DNA of 64,000 bases from Cymbomonas tetramitiformis. Taxonomy: Eukaryota; Chlorophyta; Pyramimonadophyceae; Pyramimonadales; Pyramimonadaceae. Below, in pieces: positions 31,500 through 63,700 of the stretch (the first letter of the stretch is position 1; every line of letters begins with the position of its first letter). The stretch lies in NCBI GenBank assembly GCA_001247695.2, contig LGRX02034426.1, forward strand, positions 1-64,000. Direction: 5' to 3'. The notes beneath the pieces are model-generated. The model was not told where the DNA came from. It did no database searches and worked only from the letters and a program-made list of their open reading frames with translations. Position numbers and translations under genes: made by a program.

Positions 31500-31744
31500 T
31501 TTTACAAACTTCAGAGCAGAAAGCAGGGGCTTTCGGGATTCGGAAGTGTGGAAACTGACTCTCCGTTTTGGCGTCCGCAACTGATACTCCCTTGCGGACT
31601 GTGTCACCCCCGTGACACCCCGATCGGGACGCCACCCAGGGTATGCCGTATTCCCGATCGGGCCATCTCCCGGGCGACAAAAGTCGCGCCTGCTCGATTT
31701 CTCAGTTCTGAATAACCGAAATTATCGCGAGCGATAATTGTGAA
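31500..31744 (-). repeat. element C terminal repeat A1
   Basis: 245 bp matching A2 at 24334-24577; ends gcgagcgataattgtgaa directly against satellite cgcccaag. Confidence 0.9.
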
Positions 31745-38480: not shown

Positions 38481-39647
38481 CGGGTGGGGCCACAGTCCTT
38501 CCTCAATCCTCTCACCCCGTTTGGGGAGGTGAACACTTCACTGTCCACTGGAATATATTCCAGTACTACAAACAACCCGGCCTTTATAGCCGGCACCACA
38601 ATCTCTAGCCAAAATCTCTCTGTCGGCCAAAAAGGCAGCACAAACCCTGCAGAGGTTGTACCAGGCGCTGCCCTCTTCTCTCTGAGAAAGTGAGTCAGAA
38701 TCTCCCACAGCGACGAAAAAGGTGGGTTACAGTATACTTTCAACCCCCTCCACTGATTCAACAAACAAGAGTCCTCCTTGGACCACCACCGAAAACATCG
38801 GGAGTTCAACCCCCCCCACTTCGTCACAGCACGCATCCACTGCGAAGGGCCCGAGCACCCTAATCTTGTCCCACAACCAGTCTTCCACCATCCAATCATC
38901 CAGGTCCCTCGGGGACTCCCTTCTTGACCACAATTTCAACAGGTCATAGAATCTTTTCATCTGACTCCTACTAAGGGCGTCAACTAAATCATTTTCCTTT
39001 GTGGAAATCCTCTTCATTACCAATCTCACATCATGTCTTATGGTCAGCAACAAAATCTCCTTCAACAGAGGAATGAAAGTTGTTTTCCCCCACAGGTTCC
39101 TCGTCATAAGTCTGGCTGCTTCATTGTCACTCCATATGACAATCTTGCGCCCTCTCAACAGGTGCCCCCACTTCTTCAGGGCCCAGAAAATCACAAACAA
39201 CTCCAAATAGTTGATGTGGCTCGATGCCACATCTCTGAACGGGCTGAATGGTTGTACTCTCCATTGCCTCACTTCTTCCCACTTCACTGCAAACCATCTT
39301 CCCCCGAAGAAACCACCCATTCCTCCGTCTACTGCCTCTTCCCCGGCAGCATCCACTGCAAAGAAATCTCTCCCCACCGGTCTCCGGTTCAGTACTACAG
39401 CCTGACCGTTATACTCTTCCAAAATCTTAGCCAGCCACATCAAGTCCCGACTGAGGACTTTTGGCACAGTGTCATAGAACCTTCTCATTCTACCGGCTCT
39501 GCCGATAAAATCATACCCGGACCTCAGGAACATCTTGGCCCCGTACAACACCGCCGAAGAAACCACCATTCCCCTGTCAACAGCCTCTTCCCCTGCAACA
39601 TCCTCTGCAAGGAAATCTCTGACCACAGGCCTCTTGTTCAAAACCAC
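38408..39647 (-). pseudogene. RNase H and Dam-like domain of A-IV
   Basis: Frame 38727-39647: RT C-terminal/connection (RFYDTVPKVLSRDLMWLAK), RNase H FFAVDAAGEEAVDGGMGGFF, INYLELFVIFWAL, IWSDNEAARL, LVDALSR, then DKIRVLGPFAVDACCDEVGG. The frame breaks in a C-run near 38810 and frame 38408-38899 carries on: YCNPPFSSLWEILTH, GFVLPFWPTERFWLEIVV, GPTRWPVVLVACPV. The Dam-like domain is complete in sequence but split. The first about 30 residues (NKRPVVRDFLAEDVAGEE) duplicate the RNase H start, part of the chimeric block shared by family A. Confidence 0.75.
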
Positions 39648-42128: not shown

Positions 42129-42133
42129 CCGCC

Positions 42134-42496
42134 TAGGCTATAGGCTAATCTAATATAGGATACACTTATCTTATACACACAGATGCACTGCTGATAATAT
42201 ATCACACTGATATCATTCAATAAAAGGAAGTAAGAATAATAACAGCTTTCGTAACAGCTGCCTTTATTGTTCTTAGTTCGCGCCAGTTCTCTGTTGGTTA
42301 CTCCGAGTATATCACTAGTCCCTACAGTTCACAGTGACAGTCACACAATCCATGACCACGGCAGTCAGACTCTGCTCTGCCGTGGAATACGTTTGTACTG
42401 TATCGGTGTAATGTACTGTATCAGTGTTATAAGTCAAAGTGATAGATGATAATGCAGAATGTAGAATGACAGATGACTACAGATCAGGTTTTCCTA
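42134..42496 (-). repeat. copia 3' LTR
   Basis: 363 bp, one visible mismatch to 48032-48394. The stop codon of pol (TAG) is formed by its first three bases on the minus strand. A purine-rich stretch, cacggaggag, directly upstream is the likely plus-strand primer. Confidence 0.93.
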
Positions 42497-45400
42497 CTCC
42501 TCCGTGCTTCGGAAAAAGCGAAGTACAATCTGACGAAGCACCAGAAACCTGTCAGTCGGCATGAACTTGATGAAGAAGCCAGCCAGATTCTCTACTGATG
42601 GCACTTTCACTATCCGGATACGGCCAAGCTCAGCCAGCTTCGCTACATATCGGTCCCGTACTGCAATGTGCCGAGAGGCAGTGTTGTTGAGAGCGCTCTC
42701 CGCCTGGATGATAGAGGCATGATTATCCCCGTGCAGCACCACTGGGAGCTTCACTGGAGCAAATTCTGAAAGCAGATTGACCACGTGCTCGATGTCCCGA
42801 GCCGTCTCCGAGAGCGCCACCAGCTCGGCGTCCGCGGTGCTCACAGCAACGGTCTTCTGCAGCTTAGATGAGCACATAACGGTGCTACCGTTGAGCCTCA
42901 CCAGCGAGCCTGTCACGGACCGGCGCGTAACCTTGTCCGCTGCATGATCAGCGTCCGAATAGGCCGCGACAACGAGCTCAGCATTGTGAGAAGCTGGTGA
43001 GCTGCACTGCAAAGTCAGACAAACGTCAATAGTGCCCTTTAAATACCGGAGCACACGCAGAAGATGTTGCCAGTGCGTCGCACTGTGACAATGCATGAAC
43101 CGCGCCAGATAGCACACTGCCGGCAGGATGTCCGGCCGCGTGCAACGGCCCAGCCACATAAGTTCCATAGCCAAATTGGCGTAAGGAAAGGCAGTTGCAA
43201 CGTCCTGCGGGTCTGCCGGTGTCAGCGCAAGCTTCGGTTCCATAGGCGAAAGGGCAGGATTGCAGTCCGTCATGCCATACTTCTCGAGCATACGGTGAAT
43301 GAGACCGTGCTGACTCATACGGCACTCCCTCACCAGGCCTGCGTCACGAAAGGTCATGCGCATACCAAGAATATCAGTCAGCGCACCCTCGTCCACGCTG
43401 GGATAGGCGCTGTTGAAGGACGCGAAGAAAGTGTTCTTCCACGCCTCACTGCTCGTCAACACAAGGAAGTTATCAACATGAATATAGATGAAAACAATCA
43501 GCTCGTTCGGTCAGAAAATGTAGAAAAGACACGGATCGACGTTCGAGACGGCGAGCAGAGCATCATACTGCAGCAGCCACCGTTTCAACGTGAAATACCA
43601 CACTCTCGGAGCTTGCTTGAGCCCATACACACTCTTCGCCAGCCTGCCAAAGTGTGTCCCGCGCACCATACGTCCGTCTGGCCACCTGACATACAGAGGA
43701 TTCGCAACATCCAGCTCGCCGTTCAGGAAGCACGTCACAACGTCCATAGTGAACGCTAACAGACCCAGGATAAGACTCAGCTGAAGCAGGATACGCAATG
43801 TGTTCAGCTGCGTACACGGGGAGTACACTTCCTCATAGTTCACACCATGCGACTGCTTGTTGCCAAAGACAACCCAGCGCGATTTCCGCTCAGTCAGCAC
43901 ATTCGCAGCGTCCACCTTCGGCTTGTAGATAGCTTTCATGCCCAGTGCTTTCACGCCTGCCGGAAGATTCGGCACCGGCACGATCGCCCCCTTCACGTCG
44001 ATGAGCGCGCACTCCTCCTTCTTATCCGACGCCTGCCATTCCTCCGCGTCCGGCGCATTCACGAGCTGCGTCCAATTCTTCGGACTCGTCACACCGTTAG
44101 GCAAACACTGCTGCTGAACCGCCGCCAAGGCTACGTGCTGCACCTGGAACCGAATAGAAGTCCCGGCGATGTCCACCGATTTTCCCGTACGACCACAGTG
44201 TCGCAGCAGAAGCACCTGATAGGGCAGCCTGTGCTCCTCCCGAGCATTAGCACAAACGATTGCGTCCTCCCATTCTGCGCCTGACGTCAGCTGCACCTCC
44301 GCAAAAGCGAAAACAGGATAGAAACGGTTAACAGGCTGCTCGCTGAGACACGCCCTGAGTAACTCAAGGTTAGTAGCACTCTGCTCAAGGAAGTAACTCA
44401 CCGGTGCCCAGAACGTGGTACACTTGTTTGCCGAGCGAGATTGAAGCTTCACCACACCAGTGAACTCGTCAGAGTCCGAGGGCGCATAGGCAGCGATATC
44501 GAGGATCGGAGTCGGTGAACCCGTGAACCTCTCGAAGTACGGTGCATCCAACTGAACACAGTCGAACAACGACCGCAACGGCACGATCACCGAGGGATCC
44601 CAGCTCAGTACCAGTTTTCCGCGATCGTTGACACGCTCGTCGAATCGCACCATTCCAGACCGTACAACCTTCTGCCTGTCTGGACAGTACAACAGATACG
44701 AGGGCGATCGATCGTCGTGACCCACGTAGAGAAGAGGTGTTGCCCGATCAGCCAGCTTAGCGCGCAGACTTGCATCGATAAACGCGTAAGCACGACAATC
44801 AAAGATACGAAGAGTGCTCAAGTCCACTTTCTGATTCAGCACGTCCAGAGAGGACTTCATACCGAGCTCAGCCTTCACCACACAGTTCAGGAGGTACACA
44901 GCGTGGCGAAAAGCCAGCGGCCACATACTGGCAGGAAGACCCGCAGTCATCAGCATAGCTCTGGCCTTGGCCTGAAGTAGTCGATTGTACGACTCCACTC
45001 GCGCGTTGTTCTCGTGTAAGTACGGCGCTGTCGTACGCTGAATGATGTTGTGTTGCTTGCAATACTCGGCAGTCTGACCCGAGATAATCATCGAGTCGTT
45101 GTCAGACTGCAAGACAAGCAAGTCCAGATCGTACACGATCTCCTCCACGTCCAAGTCCTCCCCCAGAATTGCTCTGCCAGTAGTCCGCACGATGTCCCGA
45201 TACTCCTCCAGTGCCTGAAGGTACTCGAGCTTGCGTTTCCAGAAATAGATGTGACCGCGTCCAGAAAAATCGTCCACAAACACCGTGTACCCGCGGAGAC
45301 CACCCTGCGATGTTGTGAAAGGGCCACCGTGGTCCGTGAACGTGAGCTTGCCGAGTCGTGTAGACGGTCGCCTCTTTTCCACCGTCTTCCTCACGGACTT

Positions 45401-46657
45401 GGGTACACGCCCCTTGTCCATTGTCTGCGAAGGTCTCGTCACCTTAGACGCCTGGCAAGACAAACACTGCTCAGAACACTGCGTCAGTTCACTTGCACGC
45501 AGTTCCTCAGAGTCCACACCAAGGTCCACACCCTGCATATCCATGACAAGAAGGTACCTGTCACAGAGGTGCCCCAGTCGAAGGTGGGCAAGCAGCTTCG
45601 CATCAATGCGTCCCACAGTGAACTGATCAAGGTAGAACAGTGTAACTGGCCACGGTGTACCCTGTATCCAGACTCGGCCCGGCTCGGACTCTGTCAGCTC
45701 CTCCACGCGATAGCACTGGTCCTTCGATGCCGAAAAAATGACGCTGCCCTTCGAGTTCGTCTGAAGCTCCTCCAGCTTCTTGGTCAGTCCCCACCAGACA
45801 GCGCTAGGTTTGTGCGGGAGCACCAGCAGGAACTTAGTGTGCTCAGGGTCCTTCGGAAAGTCCATGAAGATTTTCACCAGAAGTCTGCCAATAAAAGTAT
45901 CCACGTAGGGCATGTTTGCATAGAAAGCTCGACCCGCCAGCGTGTGATCGAAGACCGAATTCTCCACTGAATAGAACTCCGGCAGCTGCGCATTGTGCTT
46001 ATCAGCACACATATCCACAGCGAAAGGACCCTTCTCCACGTTCCAGCGCTGGAAGTCGGTGAACTTCCAGTTGACAACGTCACGGAACACCTTCTTCTGC
46101 ACTGCAGGACACGCCGCCTCAACAGCAAAAGATTCCGGTAAGATAAAAAATTTCCCGTCCCGCACCAACTTGTAGCGAGATTCACCAGTCGTACTCACCA
46201 ATTCACGATTGAGCAGCTGTCCATACAGGTCGTACTTGTCCTCGAGACATACCGCCGACAGAAGGTTAAAAGGTGAGTCCGGTACGTACTGCACCTCCAC
46301 GCTGAGCGCGTCAACCTTTTCGGTAGCGTGATTCCATAAATGCACAAGCACTACACCAGCACCCTTCGACGCCGTCACTTCCCCAGCCATGACCTTGAAA
46401 TTCACAGCCTCCTCTGCACGAACCGTTCCCCCTTCGAAGAAACGTAGGTCGTTGATTACGTGCCGCGTGGCCATAGAGTCGTAGTGAAGTACGCGTCGTA
46501 CAACTTCCACAGTGCTGGCGGCCACAGACGGCTGCTGTGCAAGTTCTCGCTGTAGATCAACAAGATCGCCCTCCGACTGAGTGACTCCGTACACCCACGA
46601 GTCCTGCAGCACGTCCCCCGTATACACACAAAGTTGATCACTGCAGTGCTGCACCAC
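42494..46657 (-). pseudogene. copia Pol polyprotein with internal Dam-like domain
   Basis: Counting from 46657: protease near D60 as YDSMATRHVIND (canonical D-[ST]-G-[AC] is D-S-M-A); Dam-like domain about 200-345 with GPFAVDMCAD (210-219), tetrad NMPY (248-251), FLLVLPH and TPWPVTLF; integrase zinc finger H358-x4-H363...C398-x2-C401; integrase D442, D519, E555 (D-35-E spacing); RT with GLLAFTMDVVTCFLNGELD. An in-frame TGA at 43513-43511 follows CLFYIF. The same frame resumes with the RT motif C region as IHVDNFLVL (normally YVDD), and RNase H with AYSDADHA. Gag and pol overlap in different frames (-1). Confidence 0.85.
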
Positions 46658-47985
46658 CGGAAACGCACACGGTACCTCAGCGTGCTCCTCGCCTCCCAGA
46701 TTTCGTCGTCCGTCATTTTCTCGGCCGTCGACACCGCTGCTGCAACTCTATCCTCCGTCTTCTGAGCCAGGTGACGCTTCTTTCGTTTCTCATACCGCTC
46801 TCTGCACATAGCCTCCTTCGCAGGATTCTTCTTGATGAACTCCTCCATTTTCTGAGGATGCACAAGCCAGCACGACTCCGACGAATGACCACCGGAGCAT
46901 ACAGCACACACCAGGTGTTTGCTGTCATTCACCTTCTTCTCCTCTGCTTGCCGTCGCCGATCACCAAGCAAACTCTTAGCCACTGCCGCAGTGTCTTCAG
47001 CGTCTGCAGCCGCCACAAAGTCTCGGGACGGATTGCGTTCCTGTATCACGTTGATATAGAAAAATTCACAACGTTGCTGTAGTAAGTCAAACGTCGGTTT
47101 CACCTCCCGACCTAGATCAGCAACCACCGTTGCATACTCAGTAGGCAGAGCCGAAACGGCAAACGCCAACGTCATTACCTCGATTGTTCTCCTATCCAAC
47201 TGTTCTCCACCATACTGACAAATAGACGATTGCAGGTCTGCAAAAGCACCAAGCTGCTTGACTGGGTCAGCCGTTGAGTTCACAGTGAGCCTCGTCAGCC
47301 GATTCACTGACGCCGCCAGCTGACCAAATAGCTGAGGTTCCACACGAGCACGCAATTTACGATACGCCTTCAAACCGTCATTATCACAACGACGTACCAG
47401 GTCAAAAGCATCGCCTACAGTGACCTGTATCAGCACAGCTGATAATACAGCACTTGCCGTCGTCGATGAACCCTGCACAGTAATTACACTTTCCGGTGGC
47501 TGGAAGTCGTCAGCAAAAGGATTGGTCCCTGGTGTCATACCGACCAGATCCTTCATGTTTGCAACGTCAGAAAGCGATTCCTCACACACAAGCTCCTTCA
47601 GGTCGGGATAGAACACCACTGCCGATTGTAGCTGTGTACTAAACTTCGTCCAGGCTTCATACCGATTCCGTTCACTGCCTGAATACTTGGCAATAGTTCC
47701 CAAGGATTTCAAAACATTGTGTACAACCTTCGAGGCGTTGTCAGACGTGATTCGTGTGTTTGACTTCTCCTCCTGCTTTTCTTCTGAGACTGCTAGTCGA
47801 CGGGATATCACTTCCATCATTTCCATTTGCTTAGCTAACAGCTCTGACAACTGATCCTCTTTACTCCGATTTGAACTCAGCTCTGGCTTCTTCTCCTGCT
47901 CATTTGTTTCCTCCATATCTGAAAACTGGAAACGTCGAGACCGAGTGTGTCTATATATACCGGTATCCGGGTTCTGATTGCTCAT
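46456..47985 (-). CDS. copia Gag
   Basis: 509 codons from ATG (MSNQNPDTGIYRHTRS). An acidic/polar N-terminus with coiled-coil tendency (LSELLAKQMEMMEVISRRL) is followed by a UBN2/retrotran-gag-like helical core (AYRKLRARVEPQLFGQLA, LPTEYATVVADLG). The knuckle is CAVCSGGHSSESC, with one residue fewer than the usual C-x2-C-x4-H-x4-C. The overlap with pol (46456-46657) in the -1 frame suggests frameshift expression; no canonical slippery heptamer was found. Gag forms the particle and binds RNA. Confidence 0.85.
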   Translation of the reverse strand: MSNQNPDTGIYRHTRSRRFQFSDMEETNEQEKKPELSSNRSKEDQLSELLAKQMEMMEVISRRLAVSEEKQEEKSNTRITSDNASKVVHNVLKSLGTIAKYSGSERNRYEAWTKFSTQLQSAVVFYPDLKELVCEESLSDVANMKDLVGMTPGTNPFADDFQPPESVITVQGSSTTASAVLSAVLIQVTVGDAFDLVRRCDNDGLKAYRKLRARVEPQLFGQLAASVNRLTRLTVNSTADPVKQLGAFADLQSSICQYGGEQLDRRTIEVMTLAFAVSALPTEYATVVADLGREVKPTFDLLQQRCEFFYINVIQERNPSRDFVAAADAEDTAAVAKSLLGDRRRQAEEKKVNDSKHLVCAVCSGGHSSESCWLVHPQKMEEFIKKNPAKEAMCRERYEKRKKRHLAQKTEDRVAAAVSTAEKMTDDEIWEARSTLRYRVRFRWCSTAVINFVCIRGTCCRTRGCTESLSRRAILLIYSENLHSSRLWPPALWKLYDAYFTTTLWPRGT

Positions 47986-48018
47986 ATACTAAGTCACCAC
48001 GCAGATTCAACACCGTCG

Positions 48019-48031
48019 TGGGCCCATAACC
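48019..48031 (-). other. primer binding site, half-tRNA-iMet type
   Basis: On the minus strand, directly after the 5' LTR, ttatgggcccac is read. This matches the anticodon-loop type site used by Drosophila copia (initiator Met tRNA half molecule, ugggcccauaa). Confidence 0.8.
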
Positions 48032-48394
48032 TAGGCTATAGGCTAATCTAATATAGGATACACTTATCTTATACACACAGATGCACTGCTGATAATATAT
48101 CACACTGATATCATTCAATAAAAGGAAGTAAGAATAATAACAGCTTTCGTAACAGCTGCCTTTATTGTTCTTAGTTCGCGCCAGTTCTCTGTTGGTTACT
48201 CCGAGTATATCACTAGTCCCTACAGTTCACAGTGACAGTCACACAATCCATGACCACGGCAGTCAGACTCTGCTCTGCCGTGGAATACGTTTGTACTGTA
48301 TCGGTGTAATGTACTGTATCAGTGTTATAAGTCAAAGTGACAGATGATAATGCAGAATGTAGAATGACAGATGACTACAGATCAGGTTTTCCTA
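48032..48394 (-). repeat. copia 5' LTR
   Basis: 363 bp; promoter-bearing LTR for the minus-strand element. Confidence 0.93.
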
Positions 48395-52479: not shown

Positions 52480-53529
52480 TATCTCTTCTTTCTCTCAGAG
52501 GTTGATGGTGAAGTGGTCATGACAGCAACTGATTCAGACACTGCTATGGAAGATCCATAGGTCACAGTAGAGCGTGATCAGACACTGAAGGACTTTTCAG
52601 ATATATTCCAGGAGGAACTTTCAGCTGGTCATAGACCAGAGCGGTTTGACGGTGGATACCATCGCATCAACATTGAACCTGGGCATACGCCACCATCACA
52701 GACAGTTCGTACTATCCCAGTGCCTATGATGGAGGAGCTCAAACGACAGATCATCAAATATGTCGAATTGGGTATCCTTCGTCTGTCATCATCACCATAT
52801 GGATGCCCAGTGATTTTCGCTCCTAAGCCAGGGGGTAAGTGGAGGATGTGTTGTGATCATCATGCCCTGAACAACATCACTGTTAAGGACACATACCCAT
52901 TGCCACCCCATGACACCCTTCTGGAACAGCTTAAGGGAGCACGCTGGTTCAGCAGATTCGACTTCAATCAGTTTTTTCACCAAATTCCTATTCATCCTGA
53001 CGACATATACAAGACAGCCATCCGAACTAGACATGGTTCATATGAGTGGACAGTTATGCCCTTTGGGTTGATTAACGCTCTAGCAACCGCTCTACGTGTT
53101 GGAAACCGAGCACTCTTTGACTTCATTGATCAGTTCCTAGTCATCTTCATGGATGATACCATTGTGTACAGTCCAGACTTTGCAACACACGCATGTTCAG
53201 CAAGTTCGCCAGTTCTTACAGCGTTGCCGAGAGCATCAGTTTTTCATCAGACCTTCTAAGGTTGAGTTGTTCGTCAGATGCATTGATTTTATCGGACACC
53301 ACATCTCAAAGGCAGGTCTATCCATCATCGAAGACAGGATCCGTGCAGTCATGGCTATTCAGCCTCCAGTATCCTATGGCCCAACTGTTGGCAAGCAGCC
53401 TCTACGCCGCATGGCTAAAGATGGCAAGTCTAGCCTTCGGTTATTCTTGGGCATGGTCGGTCAGTTTAGGAGATTTATCCCGAAATTCTCCAAGATTGCC
53501 GAGCCACTCAATCGCCTTCTGAAAGACAC
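52480..53529 (+). pseudogene. Ty3/gypsy element F, RT part (5' half)
   Basis: RT reads PGHTPPSQTVRTIPVP, GILRLSSSPYGCPVIFAPKP, motif A SRFDFNQFFHQI, MPFGLINA and motif C VIFMDDTIVYS. One frameshift near 53190 precedes the QFLQRCREHQFFIRPSKVEL thumb/connection region and FLGMVGQFRRFIPKFSKIAE. RT then breaks off at AEPLNRLLKDT where element G is inserted. Upstream Gag, protease and LTR are not recognised; 52441-52480 may still belong to it. Copies the genomic RNA of the element; inactive. Confidence 0.8.
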
Positions 53530-53666
53530 TGTGCCCGGAGGCACAGCGTGAGCCGATATGCCTATGCGTCCGTATGTGTGTCATCGGGGGTAATCTGGGA
53601 TTGGCACGATGACAGTGAAATTGGGCTTGAAATCACGATGAGAATGAATACCAGATGTCCGGGGTA
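53530..53666 (+). repeat. truncated 5' LTR of G
   Basis: Identical, as far as I can see, to the first 137 bp of the 3' LTR (61140-61276), then departs exactly where the TATGACAGTA microsatellite starts in the 3' LTR. Promoter, R and U5 parts and the primer binding site are missing; 53667-53709 leads straight to the gag ATG. Confidence 0.9.
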
Positions 53667-53709
53667 GGGTCGGAGGGGACGGCGAGTTCCCCGGCACAGA
53701 CCCCCCATT

Positions 53710-56700
53710 ATGGGCAACAACCGCGGAGAGCCCCGCGACCTTCGCCCCCGACCGCGTGTTGTCCTGCCGCTGCCCATCTATCAGTCCAACCTCGCAGACC
53801 CACGGAAAAGGCTAACTGCGTGGCACTGGAAGAGAGATCTGTACTCCCTCCCCCTCGAAGTCGCCATGCAGAAGGTCCGCAGAGCTCTGCGCAAGTCCCC
53901 AGAGGCTGCCAAGGACCTGGTGGATAAAATGTCGGAGCGCGTCCGCAGCCGCGTACACTCTGGGAGTCGATCGCCAAAGGAGCGCGTGAACCGCGCCAAC
54001 CAGCTGGCAGAGAGGATACGCATTGCCCGCGAACCTCAAGATCGCAAGGAGGGCCATCAGCGCATAGCATTGTGGCACCTCCTTTCACACGACGGTCGCC
54101 AGCAAGTCCCCGAATCCTCTAACACCAGCTCCCACGACCTCTACGCGGCTTGGAGAGAGCTGTCGCCTGCCGAGCAGCAAAAGGCAATCGCCACTTCGAG
54201 TCCAGACTCTTCCCCAGGTAGCAGGCTGTGGGAAAAGGAGGGCGCACGAAGAGCAGCAGCGAGGTCTTCGACATCCCTCTGCACCCTGGACACTGAAGTG
54301 GGCACGATACCTGGGACAGCGGGAGATGTGGGTTTACCTGGCGCCTGGTGCAGTCTGCACGCGGTACACCAGTACAAGATGAGGAAGCTGGGTCCCAGCC
54401 CCTTGGGAGCATCCCCTCCATCATCCTCGCTGGCCGAGCCCACAACAGAGACTACATCTTCGCACCATGATAACGCGCCGGCCACTCCGGGAGGAAACCC
54501 CGAAGGTTCATCCTACTGCTCAGAGGCGGAGGAGACCTCCGCACCCAGTTCGCTTTGCTTCACCCAGCGGATGACCACCGTCAAAACGCATGAAGCGGAT
54601 GAAGCGCCACCCTGTCTCGACAGCCACCCCATCGCTGAAGACCCTGAGGTGATGGAAGAGGAGTCCTCGGTCAACTCGCTCTGCTTCACCCAGCAGATGG
54701 CAGCAGCTGGGACCCCTCAGACGAGAACTGACCCCCAGAGCTCCCACCAGCTCGCCCACAACTCCCCTGCTGGCAGCCCTCAGCATGACGAGGACCCTCT
54801 CACCCATGGCAGTCTCACCAATAGTGTCGCTACCCATGTGAGCCCCACAACAAGCGGCACTACCCACGTGAGCCCCACAGTAAGCGGCACTACCCATGTT
54901 AGCCCTACCACCAGTGGCACTACACATGTGAGCCCTACTACCAGTGACACCACCCATGTGAGCCCTACCACCAGCGACACCACTCATGTCAGCCCCACCT
55001 CGAGCGAATGCACCTCAGCGGGCACCCTGCTGACGGCGAGTGCAGACAACCTCGTCAGTCATCCGCCTGAAGATGTTGATTTGCTGGATGAGGAGTTCTA
55101 CGCCGCGTGTAGGCAAACGTTGGAAGAATGCCGCGAGGCCTCGGACAACCTCCTCCCCAACCTCAAGTGCAAAAGCATACGCACAGATGGGGGAGTTCAG
55201 TGGAAGACCGACATCGAGGGTACCCTTGCAGCGGCACATGACGAAGAAGGACCGCTACTGCTGGTATTCTACGCAACCCTCAGAGGGCACACGGTCAAGG
55301 TGCTGATTGACTCGGGGGCCTCTGACAACTTCATCTCGGAGCAGAGCGCTAAGCGATGTGGCCTCACAACACGAGCCGGCTCCGAGATGCGAGTCACCCT
55401 GGCGGATGGATCTGTGAAGATCACTGGCGCCACCGCGTACGCCAAGTTTAACACGCACACCACCACGGGCACCTATACGGAGAACGCCCTTGCCCTCCGG
55501 ATCCTACCACTGGGCATACAGGTGGATGTTATCCTCGGCGGAAGGTGGCTGCGCAGTCACTCTCCTGTCACTCTGGGCTATGAAGGGAATGGCTCCGTCT
55601 CCTTCCTCAGGAAGTCCCGCAGTGGCAAGATTGGGGATCGCGTCACCATCACAGGCTGTTCTCCTGGGAAAGCATCTGGGGACAGGTCTCCGAAGGGCAC
55701 GGCCTGCGCGGGATTGGTGGATGAGGTGTTCCTAACCCCTGCCCAGCTGAAGAAGTACCTGGTGTACGCGGAGACGCAGAAGCTACGCGGCAATGACGAC
55801 CCGGAGATACAGCCCGCCTGGCTCATGGTGGCCGAGAAGTCCCCCGACGATACTGCTTCTGCCTTTGCAGCCACGGCTATCGACTCTGAGAACGCCGAAC
55901 CCGCTGCGGATACTGAAGATGCAGAAGTGAGCCCTGAGTGGACCCTCAAGTTTCAGGACTTCTGGGGTGAGGAGTACAAGAAGGAGATGACGACTGCTCT
56001 ACCGAACATCGATGGACTCAGACATGACCCCCAAGATGAAGCCAACATTAACCTGGACCCTGAGCTGAGCAAGAAGGGACCTCCCTGCCAGCGCATCTAC
56101 AAGAAGTCCGCAGAGGAACTCCGCCAACTTCGAGAACGCGTGGAGACTCTGATGTCCAAGGGCTACATCCGACCCTCTTCCAGCCCTTATGCAGCTCCCT
56201 GTTTGATGGTCCCTAAACCCGGGAACCCCAAGGAGCTGCGACTGGTGATCGATTACCGGCTCCTCAACCGCCAGACAGTTAAGGACAAGTATCCTCTCCC
56301 AGACATCCAGATGATGTTCGACGAGATGCAGGGTGCGAAGTTCTTCTCTTCGTTCGACGCGGTGGATGGCTTCTGGCAAGTACCGATGGCACCAGGAGAT
56401 GTCGAGAAGACCGCCTTCACCACCCAGATGGGGTCATATGAGTGGTTGGTCATGCCGCAGGGGCTGCAGAATTCACCATCTCAGTACCAGCGACGGATGC
56501 AGCGGGCCTTGGGCCATCTCCCATTTGTCCGGATCTTCATCGATGATGTGGTCGTCTTCAGCAACACCGCTGCAGAGCACTACGAGCACGTCAAGCAACT
56601 GCTCCTGACATGCAGGGAGAAGGGCGTCTTCCTCAAGAGGTCCAAGTGCCAACTGTTGAAGAAATCCCTGCGGTTCCTTGGCCACTGTATCTCCGCAGAT

Positions 56701-57366
56701 GGCTGCAGACCCCAACACGACAAGGTGGCTGCAGTGAGGGACTGGCCCGAGCTGGAAACGGTTACCCACGTCAGGCAGTTCTTGGGCCTGGCGGGGTATT
56801 ACCGCAGGTTCATCCACTGCTTCTCCGAGATCGCTCAGCCCCTCACCCGGTTGACCAAGTCGGACGTACCCTGGGAGTGGGGTCCCATGCAGCAGTGGGC
56901 CTTCGAGGAGCTGAAGAAGGCCCTCACCTCAGCGCCAGTGCTCGCCTTGCCCAACATTAAGGGTGCCGCAGACGGCACAGCACCTTTCGTGGTGCAGACG
57001 GATGCTAGCGGCATCGCTCTTGGGGGAGTACTGATGCAAGACAATGGAGATGGTCTTGGGCTGCGCGTGATAGCATACGAGAGCCGCCAGTTCTCAGCCG
57101 CCGAGCAGAATTACCACACCGGCGAGCGTGAGCTAGGTGCTCTACACCACTGTACCACCGTTACCTGGCGGCATTACCTCATCTTCACCAACTTCCGCAT
57201 CCAGGGTGATCACCGCCCCCTTGAATGGCTGATGGAACCTGGCAGAGAGCTTAGCCGCAGACAGGCACGCTGGTACATGGATCTGGTGGAGGTGGGAGTC
57301 CCGAGAATGGAGTACATCAAAGGAGCGCTGCTGCTGGTACCGGACGCCCTGTCCAGAAGACCCTGA
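53710..57366 (+). CDS. Gag-protease-RT-RNase H polyprotein of G
   Basis: 1218 codons from ATG. Residues 1-330: Gag-like, basic N-terminus (PRKRLTAWHWKRDLY, SERVRSRVHSGSRSPKERV), no zinc knuckle seen. Residues about 375-435: seven copies of a 10-residue Thr/Ser repeat (TTHVSPTTSG). Protease: VLIDSGASDNFIS with D534. RT: LVIDYRLLNRQTVKDKYPLP, motif A D883, motif C F-I-D-D 943-946. RNase H: QTDASGIALGG with D1098. The end VPDALSRRP matches the RNase H/linker border of Ty3/gypsy. Stops at TGA 57364-57366 preceded by CCC, where a +1 shift would continue with DFKDKDV. Confidence 0.92.
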   Translation: MGNNRGEPRDLRPRPRVVLPLPIYQSNLADPRKRLTAWHWKRDLYSLPLEVAMQKVRRALRKSPEAAKDLVDKMSERVRSRVHSGSRSPKERVNRANQLAERIRIAREPQDRKEGHQRIALWHLLSHDGRQQVPESSNTSSHDLYAAWRELSPAEQQKAIATSSPDSSPGSRLWEKEGARRAAARSSTSLCTLDTEVGTIPGTAGDVGLPGAWCSLHAVHQYKMRKLGPSPLGASPPSSSLAEPTTETTSSHHDNAPATPGGNPEGSSYCSEAEETSAPSSLCFTQRMTTVKTHEADEAPPCLDSHPIAEDPEVMEEESSVNSLCFTQQMAAAGTPQTRTDPQSSHQLAHNSPAGSPQHDEDPLTHGSLTNSVATHVSPTTSGTTHVSPTVSGTTHVSPTTSGTTHVSPTTSDTTHVSPTTSDTTHVSPTSSECTSAGTLLTASADNLVSHPPEDVDLLDEEFYAACRQTLEECREASDNLLPNLKCKSIRTDGGVQWKTDIEGTLAAAHDEEGPLLLVFYATLRGHTVKVLIDSGASDNFISEQSAKRCGLTTRAGSEMRVTLADGSVKITGATAYAKFNTHTTTGTYTENALALRILPLGIQVDVILGGRWLRSHSPVTLGYEGNGSVSFLRKSRSGKIGDRVTITGCSPGKASGDRSPKGTACAGLVDEVFLTPAQLKKYLVYAETQKLRGNDDPEIQPAWLMVAEKSPDDTASAFAATAIDSENAEPAADTEDAEVSPEWTLKFQDFWGEEYKKEMTTALPNIDGLRHDPQDEANINLDPELSKKGPPCQRIYKKSAEELRQLRERVETLMSKGYIRPSSSPYAAPCLMVPKPGNPKELRLVIDYRLLNRQTVKDKYPLPDIQMMFDEMQGAKFFSSFDAVDGFWQVPMAPGDVEKTAFTTQMGSYEWLVMPQGLQNSPSQYQRRMQRALGHLPFVRIFIDDVVVFSNTAAEHYEHVKQLLLTCREKGVFLKRSKCQLLKKSLRFLGHCISADGCRPQHDKVAAVRDWPELETVTHVRQFLGLAGYYRRFIHCFSEIAQPLTRLTKSDVPWEWGPMQQWAFEELKKALTSAPVLALPNIKGAADGTAPFVVQTDASGIALGGVLMQDNGDGLGLRVIAYESRQFSAAEQNYHTGERELGALHHCTTVTWRHYLIFTNFRIQGDHRPLEWLMEPGRELSRRQARWYMDLVEVGVPRMEYIKGALLLVPDALSRRP

Positions 57367-58519
57367 CTTCAAAGACAAGGACGTGCGAGAGGGGTTGAAG
57401 GAGGCAGGAGTGATCGACCCCACCTCAGATCTGCCGAAAGACCCCCTGGCAACGCTGGAGTCTGAATGCTTCTCCAGCTCACCACCCGCAGCTCATCCCC
57501 ACTGGGCCCAGACTGTTGACTGTTGGCTCTCAGCAGTGGAGACCCTCTCCGTGGCGGAACAGGCCATGGACGTGGGGGAAACCATCGCTCTCGTTAACCC
57601 GAAGCTCTACAAGGGAATGAAGGAGGATCATCTCGACTTCGACATGCCTGACTGGCCTGCAGCTGATAGCGCGAAGCCGGTAGAAGCTCCACACGAACCC
57701 CCTGACAGAGCTCCACCCCAGATAAGGATAACGAGGAGTATGTCACGCGCTGGGAAGGCCTCTGCAACCCCAGCACCTCCGCAGTTGGCGTCACCGAAGA
57801 CGCGAACGCCTACGTCACGAGCTGACGCATCGGAGGCGCCCACTGAGAAGGTGCCAGCGAACTCACCAACCCCGCAGCAGGCGCCCCAACAGTCAACTCC
57901 ATCCCCGGTCCTTCACCCACAAAAACGGCAGGCTCCCCCAGAGGACTCACAGAATTGGCGTGTCCGAGCAGAGTACTCCTCGAAGTACGCCGAGAAATTT
58001 GGACCCTTCGATGTGGACGCCTGTTGTGACTTTGGCGGCCGCAACAGACAGGCGGATAGATTCTGGACAGACTGCCTTTCAGAGAAATGGAGGGGCCTTC
58101 GGGTTTGGTGTAACCCTCCATACAACTCCAAGCACATCACTGTGGAGGCGATCTTGAACAAGTATATCGCGGAATGGAAGGCAGACCCAGAGAACACCTC
58201 AGCAGTCTTCGTCCTACCAGATCACCAGTCCAAGCTCCCCGCGTGGCGCAAACTTTTCAGAAAGGCCAATATGCAGATTGTGGAGGTCATCCCTACTCAC
58301 GATGACAAGGGCGAGCCCAATCAGTTCTTCGAGAACCCAGATGGGAAGGCCTTCGACCTTCGCTGGCCTGTCCTGATAGTACACGCCCCTCCCGCCAAAC
58401 CACAACCAGCACGCGTGAGGCATCCGCGAACAGCCCCCGCTGTGATAAGGACAGGTGAAGCGGCAACTTCAGAGACGCGGCCTCCCAGCAGTCGGACTCG
58501 AAGTTCCTGCGTGCGTTGA
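57362..58519 (+). CDS. Dam-like methyltransferase linker ORF of G
   Basis: Open in the +1 frame relative to ORF1; the first ATG-independent reading begins at the CCC-TGA site. Numbered from the GTG at 57383: a low-complexity Pro/Thr-rich region to about residue 190, then the Dam-like domain KFGPFDVDACCDFGG (205-219), WCNPPYNSK with tetrad N244-P-P-Y247, AVFVLPDHQSK and FDLRWPVLIV. The tetrad is canonical for N6-adenine methyltransferases. It lies between RNase H and integrase, not a standard place in Ty3/gypsy. Ends at TGA 58517-58519, overlapping the next ORF. Confidence 0.88.
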   Translation, partial: PDFKDKDVREGLKEAGVIDPTSDLPKDPLATLESECFSSSPPAAHPHWAQTVDCWLSAVETLSVAEQAMDVGETIALVNPKLYKGMKEDHLDFDMPDWPAADSAKPVEAPHEPPDRAPPQIRITRSMSRAGKASATPAPPQLASPKTRTPTSRADASEAPTEKVPANSPTPQQAPQQSTPSPVLHPQKRQAPPEDSQNWRVRAEYSSKYAEKFGPFDVDACCDFGGRNRQADRFWTDCLSEKWRGLRVWCNPPYNSKHITVEAILNKYIAEWKADPENTSAVFVLPDHQSKLPAWRKLFRKANMQIVEVIPTHDDKGEPNQFFENPDGKAFDLRWPVLIVHAPPAKPQPARVRHPRTAPAVIRTGEAATSETRPPSSRTRSSCVR

Positions 58520-60951
58520 AAGCGGAGTACACCCGAGAGGGGACACTCCGTTCACTAAGAGAGAAAGTGAAGGCGGCACCGCACCAATGCCTACAGGACT
58601 TCAGGCTAGTGGGTGAAGTGGTTTGGAGGACTGCAGCAGGGAGATATCAGTTGGTGCTGGGGGAGGACTCTCCACTTCGAGAAGTGGTGATTCGCCATGC
58701 CCATGAGTCATTGTCCTCGGGTCACACTGGGCGAGACAAGACTCTAGAGAGGGTGCTGCGACGCTTCTATTGGCGTGGGGCCGCGGAAGATGTGGGCACC
58801 TGGGTTGCATCCTGCGCGGTGTGCCAATCAGTGAGGCCGCGGGGGACTTACCCGGATGGGTTGCTAAACCCTCACAGCATCCCGAACAGGCCATGGCAGG
58901 ATGTCGCGGTGGACTTCGTCACCGGCCTGCCGGTATCAGAGAGAGGCAATGACGCTTTCGTGGCCTTCACTTGCAAGCTGACGAAGATGGTCCACGTTGT
59001 GCCGATGAACTTCGGCGACAGCTCCGCAGCTGTGGTGGCCAGAATCTACTTTGACTCGGTGTGGCGCTTACATGGCGCGCCTATGAAGATTGTCTCTGAT
59101 CGTGACCCGCGGTTTCAAGATGCTTTCTGGCAGGAACTCATGAGACTGATGGGTGTGAAAGTGGCTCGTACCACGCCGTACAACCCTCGGTCTGACGGCC
59201 AGGCGGAACACAGCAACAGGGTTATTGAGGACATGCTCAGGTCCTTTGTAGACGCCAATGTGGAGGACTGGGATCTGTTCACCACTAACGTGGAGTTCGC
59301 GATCAATGACTCCAGGAGTGAATCTACTGGCTTCACGCCGTTTGAACTGGTGTTCGGGTTCTCGCCGCTGTCGCAGTTGGACCTTTTCCTGGAGGCCGCA
59401 CAGTCCACCGCTGGACGACGAACTGGGGGAGTAGGCACCGCACACGAAGTGGCTGTGAAATTTTCGTCGCAGCTGCGGGACGCCAGACAGCGGTTAGAGC
59501 TGGCTCAACAGCGACAGCGCGAACAGTTTGATCGCAGACACGGGCAGCGGGAGTATGCTGTTGGAGATCTGGTCTGGATAGAGGCGAAACACCTTACGGA
59601 GAAGGTGATGGATCGCTCCATCTGTAGGAAACTGACCAAGCGCTGGCATGGACCAGTTCCTGTGACCGAACGCTTCTTCAGCGATGTACAGATGACCATG
59701 CCAGAGGCCGACAGAGGAGCCCCAGTAGCCTACCGCCTACGCCTCCCTCCTCACTGGCGGATTCACGACGTCTTCGCTCAACACCGCCTCAAACCGTACA
59801 CCAGCGGCCAAGATGCTTTTGCCGCACGCGATCACCTAGCAGTACCTGAAGAAGTGGTAGTGGACGGTCAGAAGGAAGCACACGTTGAGCGCATCCTTGC
59901 ACGTCGAGTGCGGTCTGTTCGAGGAAAGGAGGTGGAAGAGTGGAAGGTTCGCTGGACTGGCTACTCCAAAGCTCACGACCAATGGAGGACGCGTGACAAA
60001 CTTGAACGCGGAAGTCCACTTCAACAACTTCGTGAATTCGAGCAAGCGAGACTGCACATGGAAGCGCAAGTCCGCGACGAAGCCACTCGGCGACGCGAGC
60101 AGCGTGGCCGCCACTCCGCTCAAGCCGGAATGACACTGGCCCACCTCATCACTAATCCCTGCGATGAACTGGACCAGCTCGAACAGATGGAAGATGATAT
60201 CCCCCTGCCGTGGGAACGCCAAGAGCGCGTGGAAGATGGGTCGTTGGCACTGGTGACAGAGCTGCTGGCAATACAGACAAAAACAACCCGCACGCCCAGG
60301 ATTCTCGTACTTTTCAGCGGTACTGGCTCAGTAGAGAGGGAATTCCTGAATTGCTTCCCCTCCGCCTCAGTAGTGACCCTCGACTCCGGGCATATCTGGC
60401 AACCCACTCATGTGTGTGACATCCTACAATGGGACTACAGACAATACCCGCCTGGATTCTTCGATGTTGTTTGGGCAAGTCCCCCCTGCAGGCAGTACAG
60501 TCAAGCGCGCACCACTGGTGGACCCCCTGACCTTCCCCAGGCTGACAAAATCGTACGACGAGCATTGCAGATCATTGACTACCTGGAGCCAAAACATTGG
60601 TTCATGGAAAACCCCAGAGGTCGCTTCCCTAACGCGCTACGGCTTCGCCCTATGATGCGCCAGCTTCCCCCACCGCTGGTGTGTACCTACTGCATGTACG
60701 GTACGCAGTACATGAAACCCACCTGCATATGGACGAACTCAGCACCACCCTCGCCCCTGCTACGCTGTACTACTTCAACACCGTGTGCGTGCAGATGGGC
60801 AACCGGTGCTCATCCAGAGACTGCTCAGCTTGGACCTCACCCGCAGCAGACTGGAGCAGGTCGATCCGCGAGTGTATATCCCGTGCCAGCACTCCTGCTA
60901 CGACAACTTTTCCGACATTTACGCCTCCGCGACACTGAAGACCCGCTTTAG
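58459..60951 (+). CDS. integrase-chromodomain-C5 methyltransferase ORF of G
   Basis: Open from 58459; no ATG near the start, so a -1 shift from the previous frame is likely (no slippery site recognised). Numbered from 58516: H2C2 finger with CAVCQ; integrase D132, D195, E231 (D-35-E exact); chromodomain about 456-510 (VERILARRVRSVRGKEVEEW, KVRWTGYSKAHDQW); C5 methyltransferase 596-800: ILVLFSGTGSVEREF (SAM motif I), SPPCRQYSQAR with C658 (motif IV), FMENPRGRF with E698 (motif VI), KPTCIWTN, and YPVPALLLRQLF (motif X). Motifs I, IV, VI and X are in order, so it could be an active cytosine methyltransferase. Confidence 0.9.
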   Translation, partial: SGNFRDAASQQSDSKFLRALKAEYTREGTLRSLREKVKAAPHQCLQDFRLVGEVVWRTAAGRYQLVLGEDSPLREVVIRHAHESLSSGHTGRDKTLERVLRRFYWRGAAEDVGTWVASCAVCQSVRPRGTYPDGLLNPHSIPNRPWQDVAVDFVTGLPVSERGNDAFVAFTCKLTKMVHVVPMNFGDSSAAVVARIYFDSVWRLHGAPMKIVSDRDPRFQDAFWQELMRLMGVKVARTTPYNPRSDGQAEHSNRVIEDMLRSFVDANVEDWDLFTTNVEFAINDSRSESTGFTPFELVFGFSPLSQLDLFLEAAQSTAGRRTGGVGTAHEVAVKFSSQLRDARQRLELAQQRQREQFDRRHGQREYAVGDLVWIEAKHLTEKVMDRSICRKLTKRWHGPVPVTERFFSDVQMTMPEADRGAPVAYRLRLPPHWRIHDVFAQHRLKPYTSGQDAFAARDHLAVPEEVVVDGQKEAHVERILARRVRSVRGKEVEEWKVRWTGYSKAHDQWRTRDKLERGSPLQQLREFEQARLHMEAQVRDEATRRREQRGRHSAQAGMTLAHLITNPCDELDQLEQMEDDIPLPWERQERVEDGSLALVTELLAIQTKTTRTPRILVLFSGTGSVEREFLNCFPSASVVTLDSGHIWQPTHVCDILQWDYRQYPPGFFDVVWASPPCRQYSQARTTGGPPDLPQADKIVRRALQIIDYLEPKHWFMENPRGRFPNALRLRPMMRQLPPPLVCTYCMYGTQYMKPTCIWTNSAPPSPLLRCTTSTPCACRWATGAHPETAQLGPHPQQTGAGRSASVYPVPALLLRQLFRHLRLRDTEDPL

Positions 60952-61123
60952 ATTCCAAGTGGCACCCTTCTTCTTGAAAGTGGTGCCCTGGTAGCGGCAG
61001 GCAAACTATGCTCGAAGAGGAACCAGAGAACCTAAGAACTGGAAACAGCAAGGAACCAGAAAACCTAAGAACTGGAACTTAGATGGGTACCTTAGCGGAG
61101 TGATCCCAGGAGGTAGACCACTC

Positions 61124-61139
61124 CTAAGGGGGGGAGAGT
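61124..61139 (+). other. polypurine tract of G
   Basis: aagggggggagagt directly before the 3' LTR; the expected plus-strand primer. Confidence 0.8.
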
Positions 61140-61832
61140 TGTGCCCGGAGGCACAGCGTGAGCCGATATGCCTATGCGTCCGTATGTGTGTCATCGGGGG
61201 TAATCTGGGATTGGCACGATGACAGTGAAATTGGGCTTGAAATCACGATGAGAATGAATACCAGATGTCCGGGGTATGACAGTATGACACTATGACACTA
61301 TGACAGTATGACAGTATGACACTATAGTAGTATGACAGTACTGTGGGGGGTGTCATCGTGGAACTCAGTCAGACCCTCGAAGAATGGTCAGATTCGCATC
61401 GGGGTTGAAAAGACAATGAAATCGAATATCAGATATTAAGGTTATGACAGTATGACAGTATGACGCTATGACAGTATGACAGTATGACAGTACAGTAGTA
61501 TGACAGTACTGTGGGGCAGTCATCGTGTCAGCCTGTCGGCATAACATCTGAATCGAGAATGACGAATCGGAATTAGAAATGAGATCGGATCGGGAACTGA
61601 ACGTTGAGCCGAAGTGTGACATCGGCTCTCGAGTGGTTGACCCTGCAACCTGAGTGACGAGTGAATAAGTAGAGCACTTGAGAAGTGTTTAGCCTTCAGA
61701 ACTCGGAACCGAATTATCGTTTGTACCTCAATCTGGCCCTGATCCAGTATATTATAAAAATCCGAATTGTGTACCTTTGCACGTTCAATCAAAAACATAT
61801 CTCCGAGCCTCTGTCGTCGTGCCCCTGGCACA
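61140..61832 (+). repeat. 3' LTR of G
   Basis: 693 bp, TGTGCC...GGCACA. Contains two TATGACAGTA microsatellite blocks (about 61275-61340 and 61444-61510), each followed by a ctgtgggg motif. A TATA-like tattataaaa lies near 61750. Confidence 0.9.
61749..61762 (+). promoter_or_regulatory. TATA-like box in the 3' LTR of G
   Basis: tattataaaa about 70-80 bp before the LTR end, so U3 would be about 640 bp and R/U5 short. The equivalent part of the 5' LTR is deleted. Confidence 0.5.
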
Positions 61833-63700
61833 GACACTGCAGAATTTGTCCGGGAAACTGAGCAGCAGCAGGCATTCGACAATCTCAAAAGTGCCATCTG
61901 CAATGCTCCAGTGCTTCAGCTTCCAGATCAGAAACTGGCGTCCATTATGGAGGTCGATGGATCAGGCACTCGTGTTGGCCAAGTCATTCTTCAGGATCAA
62001 AGCAAAGGTATGAGACCATGTGGCTACTACAGCGTAACTCTTTCTGACACACAACGACGCTGGCCTATTCCTGAAATTGTATTATACGCCATTGTGGAGG
62101 GCTTCCGGTTCTTCCGCCACATCTTGCTGGGCGCTCCAGAGACTATCGTCCGCTCGGCTCATCAGCCACTGGTTTATGTCCGGTCTAAATCCACACTAAG
62201 TCCGAAACAGGCGAGGTGGTTGGATGAGCTCTCTGAGTACAACTTTCGGATTGAGCACATTTATCGCGTCACAGTATGATCGTGATCCTTTTGCACAATC
62301 GATACTTTCCAAACTGGCATCAGCATCATCATCACCACAGACCGTCAGCAGTTTTGAGCTCATACAGGGATGATTATATCGTAAGACCATATATGGCAGG
62401 CAGCTTTACATACCACCGACTGCCAAAGTCCATACAGATGACGGTGAGATCACACAACGTCGCCACATTCTTCTTCATGAGTGTCACTCAGCAACAGTTT
62501 CTGGTCATGTAGGCAAGAATCACATGCTTCATCTATTGCGTAGCCGATATTACAGGCCAGGAATGACAAAGGCAGCAATTCAGTACATTCCGGAGTGCCC
62601 CGTATGCCAACGCCAGAAAACGAGGAGACACAAACCTTATGGACAGGCGCACATTCGCTATTGTGTACCTAAGACAAAATGGCTTGATGTTTCTCTTGAC
62701 TGGATCACCGATTTGCCTTTGACCACCAATGGGCACGACAGTATATTTGTGGTAATGTGCCAATTCACTCATCGCTGCCATCTCATCCCATTTCACATGA
62801 CCTGGACTGCTCAGCACACCGCTGCTATATATATACAGCACACCTTCAAGCTCCATGGTCTTCCGAGGAATATCATCTCAGATCGAGATCCCAGATTCAC
62901 TTCTTCATTCTGGCAAACGCTGTGGAAATCTACTGGTACGAGATTGTCTATGACATCTTCACACCATCCACAGTCGAATGCGAGCAATGAACGAAGCCAT
63001 GCCTTCATTGAGGACATCCTCAGGTATTTTTTCATTTTTGTTTTATGCAGGATACACCAGCCTCCGGTTTATGATTACTGATTAGAAAGTATTTATCCTC
63101 AGGTGTTGTTGCAATGATACTTCTGCCAATTCGTGGGAAGACAAGTTGCCTCTGGTGGAGTTTGCAATCAACAATACGGTCTCTGCTACTACTGGATACT
63201 CACCTTTCTATCTCGATTCCCTGGCGCAGCCATTATCGCCACACGATTTGGCAATCACCATTCCGCCAGAAGCTCTTGTTCCAATTCAGAATGCTATCCG
63301 AGATTACGTTGACCAGTATTCGGCTGTTCATGCCAATGCGGTAGACAATATTAGCCGAGCAGCAGAAATCAATCGAGCCAGGTTCAACAAGACTCACATG
63401 CCCCGACAGTATGCACTAGGGCAGAAAGTTCTTTTACGGACTGAGTATATCCAATGGACTGGTTTGACAGAGGCAGGCGGACACTTTAAGCAGCCCTACA
63501 TCGGACCGTTTACAATTTCCAAAGTTGTCAGCCATGGACGTGCATATGAGCTGGATTTTGCATGACGCAGGCACTCAGGTATTTGGCGGGCTGCGCAATT
63601 TAATGTGGACCTTTTACTTATTTCAATTCCAAAATGAGGTTTATAAAACAATTAACAGACTAAAAGTTTTGTGTAGTTCACGTTGCGGCACGTCATCTCC
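61833..63700 (+). pseudogene. Ty3/gypsy element F, RNase H-integrase part (3' half)
   Basis: Resumes exactly after the G target duplication: EFVRETEQQQAFDNLKSAIC, RNase H SIMEVDGSGTRVGQVIL (an altered active-site region) and YCV-type end, stop at 62279. The H2C2 finger follows with LRSRYYRPGMTKAAIQYIPE and CPVCQRQK. Integrase: SLDWITDLP, IISDRDPRF, HPQSNASNERSHAF with D, D and E present. The frame is interrupted at 63024-63102 by an intron-like insert, then continues LPLVEFAINNTVSATTGYSP and an integrase C-terminal GPFTISKVVSHGRAYELDFA to 63565. Degenerate, with frameshifts. Confidence 0.82.
63016..63104 (+). other. 79-bp GT-AG intron-like insert in the F integrase
   Basis: gtattttttcatttttg ... 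atttatcctcag at 63024-63102. Removal joins EDILR to CCCNDTSANSWEDKLPLVEF in one frame, as expected for a Ty3/gypsy integrase. A 10-bp direct repeat, atcctcaggt, lies at 63016-63025 and 63095-63104. It contains a branch-point-like ctgat near 63079. Confidence 0.7.

Follow-up and report, generated by a model that had tools for sequence, protein, structure and literature searches.

Predicted adenine- and cytosine-methyltransferase domains in a single Pol polyprotein of a Ty3/gypsy retrotransposon lineage from Cymbomonas tetramitiformis

The question of why transposons carry enzymes of the mark by which they are silenced is raised by a 64,000-nucleotide stretch of the green alga Cymbomonas tetramitiformis (contig LGRX02034426.1, positions 1 to 64,000), which is called the window here. 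A Ty3/gypsy long terminal repeat (LTR) retrotransposon spans positions 53530-61832 of the window. The element belongs to a lineage that, judged from its sequence, has a single Pol polyprotein with the order protease, reverse transcriptase (RT), RNase H, Dam-like methyltransferase, integrase, chromodomain and C5 methyltransferase. A putative adenine writer and a putative cytosine writer are encoded beside a chromatin reader, they are found in two distant sources and they are under selection, which makes the question testable.

The order of protease, RT, RNase H and integrase is that of Ty3/gypsy elements, and the position of the chromodomain C-terminal to the integrase is that of chromoviruses. 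In the frame beginning at 58516, the H2C2 (1.7e-17), SH3_Tf2-1 (6.9e-9) and Chromo (5.2e-7, 29.9 bits, cut-off 25.1) profiles of Pfam scored over their cut-offs, H2C2 well over, and the rve core of the integrase remained below its own (24.4 bits vs 32.6). In the frame beginning at 57362, the Dam profile PF05869 scored over its cut-off (E 5.7e-8, 33.1 bits vs 28.1), and together with the NPPY motif this assigns the domain to the Dam family. The original prediction, which had placed a Dam-like domain with an intact NPPY in the second open reading frame (ORF) of the element, is thus confirmed by Pfam. Its reading of the third ORF as integrase, chromodomain and a C5 domain with the typical motifs agrees with the profiles named above and with the phage family match, alignments and fold described below. 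The profile search it had proposed succeeded for PF05869 and Chromo and fell short for DNA_methylase PF00145, which remained under the cut-off in the C5 domain (3.1e-4, 20.7 bits vs 22).

The copies of the element were searched in the 25745 contigs of the 852-Mb genome assembly, in which the window lies in contig C24328. Only the best scorers were scored, namely 107 of the 15810 Dam candidates and 150 of the 8350 C5 candidates with the window copy included, and the copies studied further were drawn from the top scorers of each query, so that the counts lean towards intact copies. The Dam query gave at least 107 scored copies, 100 of which have no stop inside the match and 10 of which lie in open frames of at least 2500 aa. 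The C5 query gave at least 150 scored copies, all of them full length, 99-100% identical and stop-free, with 25 in frames of at least 2500 aa. In other copies all three ORFs of the window element belong to a single frame, which reaches about 2536 aa and follows a gag ORF. The match to the second frame of the window copy stops at residue 369 or 370 in 104 of the 107 rows, and this is the frame change of the window copy. Three ORFs had been proposed as the design of the element; this was rejected, since many other copies hold one long Pol frame, which is broken in the window copy. Copy L009 (C8633), which is 97.9% identical, seems to share the frame change at residue 370 and the three-frame layout; copies that were already broken may have transposed or become duplicated.

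The second source was found outside the algal assembly. Scanning genome contigs with the C5 alignment yielded 58 loci; 57 of these are at 28-38% identity and one, L243, is at 44%. This locus is located on contig NHEN01000032.1, which bears the title Verrucomicrobiaceae bacterium TMED86 and belongs to a metagenome bin that we take to be marine. It encodes the last part of an integrase, followed by SH3_Tf2-1 and Chromo (Pfam) fused to a C5 domain, again in the chromovirus arrangement, and shares 39% identity with positions 59167-60948 of the window. Pfam at an E-value of 0.1 reported neither PF00145 nor rve in L243, so the C5 assignment is based on the 44% identity to the window and the integrase assignment on the alignment. 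The Dam query matches the same contig upstream of the C5 domain and within the same open frame of 1325 aa (4.4e-26, 38%). The domains of this frame follow the order of the window, with RNase H at 51% identity, Dam at 37%, integrase at 39%, the chromodomain, and C5 at 44%; the VWCNPPY stretch of the Dam domain and the PPC and ENP motifs of the C5 domain are kept. In a tree with 43 viral and prokaryotic rows, the C5 domains of the window and of NHEN01000032.1 pair at 100/100. This pairing makes a single capture of the C5 domain, retained since then, the simplest reading of the sequences. NHEN01000032.1 is likely to be a misbinned eukaryotic contig in a public genome. That the window copy is broken and nested would fit a chance capture or an assembly artefact in one copy; this explanation is refuted by the copy counts, at least 150 scored for C5 and at least 107 for Dam, and by NHEN01000032.1, and its probability is practically nil.

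The C5 domain resembles small viral enzymes in sequence. Its match to the PHROG family phrog_757, annotated as DNA methyltransferase (7.3e-18), covers residues 24-225 of 251. Aligned with five phage proteins, the domain shows no variation at the catalytic Cys, ENP, KPT..W and C-terminal positions. The position just ahead of the catalytic Cys does vary, the stretch reading SPDC in three of the phage proteins, SPLC in one and SPPC in one. Across 33 aligned IMG/VR proteins (alignment A6) SPPC is invariant. These are 33 of 80 kept loci, and the search pattern contained ENP, so the invariance of ENP is built in. The rows of A6, like those of the Dam alignment A7, were picked by hand once near-copies, rows that were broken or too long and a few further rows had been removed. 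The residues C658 and E698 had been numbered correctly and correspond to columns C74 and E114 of A6. The relatives found by sequence are small free-standing methyltransferases of phages, archaeal viruses and bacteria, with 28-39% identity to the viral ones. When viral contigs were scanned, the C5 domain by itself, the integrase-chromodomain part and alignment A8 gave 1, 13 and 91 pattern matches, respectively, among which no relative was confirmed. The sequence search of the PDB with the C5 domain matched only DNMT1, at E 0.7. Compared with the Pfam profile, phrog_757 and the fold identify the domain much more clearly. The AlphaFold model (pLDDT 77.5) matched C5 methyltransferase entries or their complexes in all 50 PDB fold matches listed (58 at E<=0.001), with TM-scores of 0.43-0.55 on the model and with DNMT3 and DNMT1 among the top matches. 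Motifs I, IV (PPC) and VI (ENP) and the C-terminal motif, together with this fold, identify the domain as a putative C5 methyltransferase. The sequence relationships point to a small phage-type enzyme taken up by a retrotransposon, apparently unlike the published captures of the Dnmt3 type.

The carriage of such C5 domains by phages and archaeal viruses would also suit a restriction-type role, in which methylation protects the complementary DNA (cDNA) against host nucleases or those of co-infecting viruses and does not set chromatin. Retrotransposon methylases have been suggested to serve in defence (PMC6338049). The fusion of the domain behind a chromodomain points to chromatin instead, and we regard the protective role as quite unlikely.

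The Dam-like domain also has viral relatives. It matches phrog_111 (5.4e-12), and D31 and the VWCNPPY stretch are common to it and three phage proteins that were found by tblastn without use of the motif as a search pattern. A sequence search of the PDB with the domain gave three matches, none of them a methyltransferase. In alignment A7, made of 32 of 80 kept IMG/VR loci, the search pattern contained VWCNPPY and the invariance of this motif is likewise built in. The domain is apparently not restricted to the gypsy element. A Ty1/copia element at 42132-48329 of the window, whose 300-nt end stretches are 100% identical, has a Dam domain upstream of its integrase (2.4e-6, 27.8 bits, just under the cut-off of 28.1) with the motif NMPY. 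A DIRS-like element at 25130-28340 combines a weak tyrosine-recombinase match with a Dam domain whose motif reads NLPF; at 26.4 bits (6.5e-6) this domain also falls slightly short of the cut-off. Further DIRS-like stretches were recognized by reading at 15563-18477, 37395-39647 and 2194-2913, and the stretch 16309-18477 reads NPPW. In pairwise comparisons with the DIRS and copia Dam domains, the Dam domain of the window gypsy element gave E-values of 1e-8 and 1e-7 and that of the second source 3e-13 and 9e-7. In the Dam tree, a branch with 100/99 separates the gypsy, copia and DIRS rows from 35 viral rows, and the same split has 94/87 without the second source; the branches are long in both cases. 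The simplest reading of these sequences is a retroelement Dam family that has been passed between element classes, and the findings point to a Dam-like domain apparently common to gypsy, copia and DIRS elements.

Selection was assessed from nonsynonymous (N) and synonymous (S) changes, counted copy by copy against the window copy. Of 20 copies picked by the C5 query, 19 were found for the Dam interval 57926-58399; the 16 gap-free ones were counted and the three gapped ones omitted. The Dam core in these 16 copies gave 15 N/30 S (pN/pS 0.136, p 8.5e-11). An interval that touches the frameshift of the window copy gave 29 N/46 S (pN/pS 0.185), and 20 copies chosen by the Dam query, a biased choice, gave 5 N/25 S (pN/pS 0.054). 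The C5 domain in 18 copies chosen by the Dam query, of which 14 are full length, 2 have indels and one has an internal stop, gave 16 N/31 S (pN/pS 0.17, p 2.6e-9). The values for the other parts of Pol were 7 N/23 S for RT (pN/pS 0.09), 8 N/28 S for RNase H (0.087), 16 N/68 S for the integrase (0.075), 10 N/19 S for the chromodomain region (0.16) and 53 N/68 S for the N-terminal part (0.25). An earlier selection count gave a similar picture. Both methyltransferases are constrained about like the chromodomain region and less tightly than RT and integrase.

The catalytic motifs are kept in the same copies. NPPY is present in all 20 copies chosen by the Dam query and in 17 of the 19 found among the 20 C5-chosen ones, the other 2 lacking coverage of the site. 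The D..C stretch is kept in 16 of 17 readable C5-chosen copies, and one reads FDGD. Eighteen of the 20 Dam-chosen copies hold the C5 domain; its catalytic stretch reads SPPC in 16 and RPPC in 2, and PPC and ENP are present in all 18. The original prediction had stated in advance that motifs not conserved among copies, or a methylase part missing from most of them, would speak against it. Neither was found, given the stop-free matches reported above and the motifs kept wherever they are readable.

On the basis of the kept catalytic motifs, the fold and the selection, both methyltransferases are most likely working enzymes. We propose that, made as part of Pol, both would accompany the cDNA inside the virus-like particle. 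The Dam-like enzyme would methylate the cDNA. The C5 enzyme, which follows integrase and chromodomain in the fusion, would act on the new copy and its site, methylating them during integration or shortly afterwards. The benefit could be a fixed chromatin state of the copy, or passing as 'self' at the chosen target. That the lineage uses two working Pol methyltransferases to mark its own cDNA or integration site is, on balance, slightly favoured as an explanation of the whole. More tentatively, and with somewhat less than even confidence, the lineage may be regarded as old and widespread, with a one-protein kit of reader (chromodomain), inserter (integrase) and writers of N6-methyladenine and 5-methylcytosine that writes two-base methylation on its own copies or target chromatin.

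Several observations weigh against the marking of DNA by two active enzymes. The fold matches of the Dam model (pLDDT 82.6) are weak and mixed; BsTrmB is the only one at E<=0.001. The fold matches that follow BsTrmB include the human and zebrafish cap-specific adenosine methyltransferase, which we take to be PCIF1/CAPAM. Matches 2, 3 and 5 are this enzyme, and a weak Pfam match to PCIF1_WW (0.26) was seen as well, as would suit a Dam-like domain that methylates RNA, namely the transcript of the element itself, beside a C5 domain acting on DNA. The best sequence families of the Dam part are phage DNA methyltransferases, and methylation of RNA is considered very unlikely. The copia (NMPY) and DIRS (NLPF) Dam domains show that the domain can persist without NPPY. 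Together with the varying residue before the catalytic Cys in the five phage C5 relatives, this would agree with domains kept as binding or structural modules, for nucleic-acid or S-adenosylmethionine sensing in the particle or pre-integration complex, and not as methyltransferases. NPPY, PPC and ENP are kept in every readable gypsy copy and in the distant relative, and the DIRS-like stretch with NPPW also speaks for catalysis; a role as binding modules is unlikely, though not far-fetched. Furthermore, with a root placed towards the viruses, the two gypsy Dam rows do not form a pair of their own (99/70, long branches), so the tree does not show an unbroken descent of the Dam part within the lineage.

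The remaining points against DNA marking by active enzymes concern the traces of methylation itself. Transition rates among shared variants, with coding constraint still included, were 0.040 at CG, 0.016 at CHH, 0.021 at CHG and 0.024 at A/T sites, so that CG transitions exceed those at CHH only 2.5-fold. Singletons have no CG excess (CG 0.033, CHH 0.031, CHG 0.040, A/T 0.038), and change rates at A/T sites lie between or above the CG and CHH rates. The ratio of observed to expected CpG is 0.96 for the LTR, 0.76 for Pol and 0.83 for the window, the LTR value being unfavourable to methylation. GATC is not depleted in Pol (26 found vs 26.4 expected). The signal of 5-methylcytosine decay in the sequence is at most faint, and heavy lasting CpG methylation is not seen in the variants and CpG content of the copies, unless the copies are of too recent origin or sites other than CG are the target.

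The closest described element is KnitGypsy-Dnmt3 of Klebsormidium nitens (de Mendoza et al. 2018, PMC5890265), which also has a C5 methyltransferase in a gypsy Pol, purifying selection and several copies. In the part of that paper available, its domain is of the Dnmt3 type and its repeats are DIRS-like, whereas the window element has a small phage-like C5 domain, a Dam domain, a chromodomain and ordinary LTRs. The main text of the paper, as available, does not contain the word chromodomain, and it mentions adenine methyltransferases only in connection with DIRS elements from other lineages. SymbioDIRS-Dnmt3 and SymbioLINE-Dnmt (available part of PMC5890265) are likewise retrotransposon-borne C5 methyltransferases and differ in retroelement class and DNMT type. 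According to the abstract of that paper, the DNMTs of retrotransposons are capable of de novo CG methylation and could bring about self-methylation. DIRS1-like elements, in the available part of PMC3266345, carry a methyltransferase domain past RT-RNase H, with its function given there as unknown; unlike the window element they have a tyrosine recombinase, three ORFs (gag/YR/pol) and no integrase-chromodomain-C5 part. Ectocarpus elements (available part of PMC12477816) share chromatin readers, prokaryote-like accessory domains and a proposed self-modification, in gypsy elements with chromodomain, Tudor and NADAR domains and in Sola1 with a ParB-methyltransferase. These gypsy elements are described there without a methyltransferase and Sola1 is a DNA transposon, whereas the window gypsy element carries two putative methyltransferases. 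Dam- and Dcm-coding retrotransposons of the gypsy/DIRS clades are reported from many eukaryotes including green algae in PMC6338049, whose available part does not state that both occur in one element. Among viral proteins, Bacillus phage BM15 gp128 and Haloferax tailed virus 1 gp60 share the catalytic Cys, ENP, KPT..W and C-terminal positions with the window C5 domain; such phage and archaeal-virus enzymes are free-standing, and the window domain is fused in Pol. The literature searched, to which most subscription papers and Repbase did not belong and which was in part accessible only as excerpts, contained no retrotransposon with both kinds of methyltransferase or with a phage-type C5 domain, and priority is not claimed.

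The boundaries of the element and the positions of its domains are given in Table 1. A direct repeat of 137 bp, 100% identical, was found at the element ends, and this length was at first a candidate for the LTR. It was rejected, since copy L018 carries one whole and one partial LTR of the same kind and fixes the length at 693 bp. The TG..CA ends and the 5-bp target duplication are those of a Ty3/gypsy LTR element, the 5' LTR being truncated in the window copy. The extent of 57362-60951 given by the original prediction lies within the element, which is larger on both sides, as its target duplication and 693-bp LTR reveal. Of 24 loci compared, 20 are similar to the window exactly from position 53666 onwards, which places a deletion junction of the window copy at 53666/53667. 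The rest of the 5' LTR, the leader, gag and the first part of Pol have been lost here. The 137 identical bases suggest that the insertion is probably recent, though the copy is damaged. The element appears, from reading of the translations, to be nested in an older, interrupted gypsy-like element that resumes past 61837.

Table 1. Features of the Ty3/gypsy element in the window
Feature	Position	Strand	Basis or remark
Target-site duplication GACAC, left	53525..53529	.	equals 61833-61837
5' LTR, first 137 bp only	53530..53666	+	identical to 61140-61276
Pol piece 1: N-terminal part, protease ~55273-55542, reverse transcriptase ~56209-56685, RNase H ~56878-57288	53710..57366	+	Pfam
Pol piece 2: linker and Dam-like N6-adenine methyltransferase domain (putative) ~57926-58444, NPPY 58112-58123	57362..58519	+	Pfam, PHROG, alignment, model
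Pol piece 3, integrase: H2C2 zinc domain ~58669-58842, rve core ~58888-59187	58516..59640	+	Pfam (rve under cut-off); 39% identity to integrase part of L301 (on NHEN01000032.1)
SH3_Tf2-1 and chromodomain (chromo ~59881-60042)	59716..60060	+	Pfam
C5-cytosine methyltransferase domain (putative), small phage-like type: FSGTGS, SPPC with C658, MENP with E698, KPTCIWTN, YPVPALL	60268..60948	+	Pfam, PHROG, alignments, model
3' LTR, 693 bp, TGTGCC...GGCACA, contains TATAAAA	61140..61832	+	length from copy L018
Target-site duplication GACAC, right	61833..61837	.	equals left copy

The gag part, deleted in the window copy, was examined in four other copies (L037-L040). The ORF upstream of Pol has at least 555 aa in three of them, where the frame runs to the start of the piece, and 426 aa in the fourth. 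The piece of L037 contains a zf-CCHC zinc knuckle match (E 0.0026, 18.2 bits vs a cut-off of 20.8). In all four copies the gag-side ORF ends with UGA-CUG and Pol follows in the same frame; stop read-through at this gag-UGA-pol junction is likely from the sequence.

Other methyltransferase families were observed in the same genome. The family of L242 (C1905:54100-54880), a second one with long ORFs, has a different C5 domain (PF00145, 45 bits). Its scored copies number at least 150 and are 99-100% identical, and many lie in open frames of 2398 aa. This C5 domain is presumably Dnmt3-like, and our guess is that the family is a retroelement. Seven nearly full-length PF00145 matches of about 103-111 bits (L236-L241 and C16883) are located in frames of 383-401 aa on separate contigs and are repeated. 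The window itself also contains arrays of a 40-bp tandem repeat at 5434-5917, 23439-23962, 31621-32304 and other positions.

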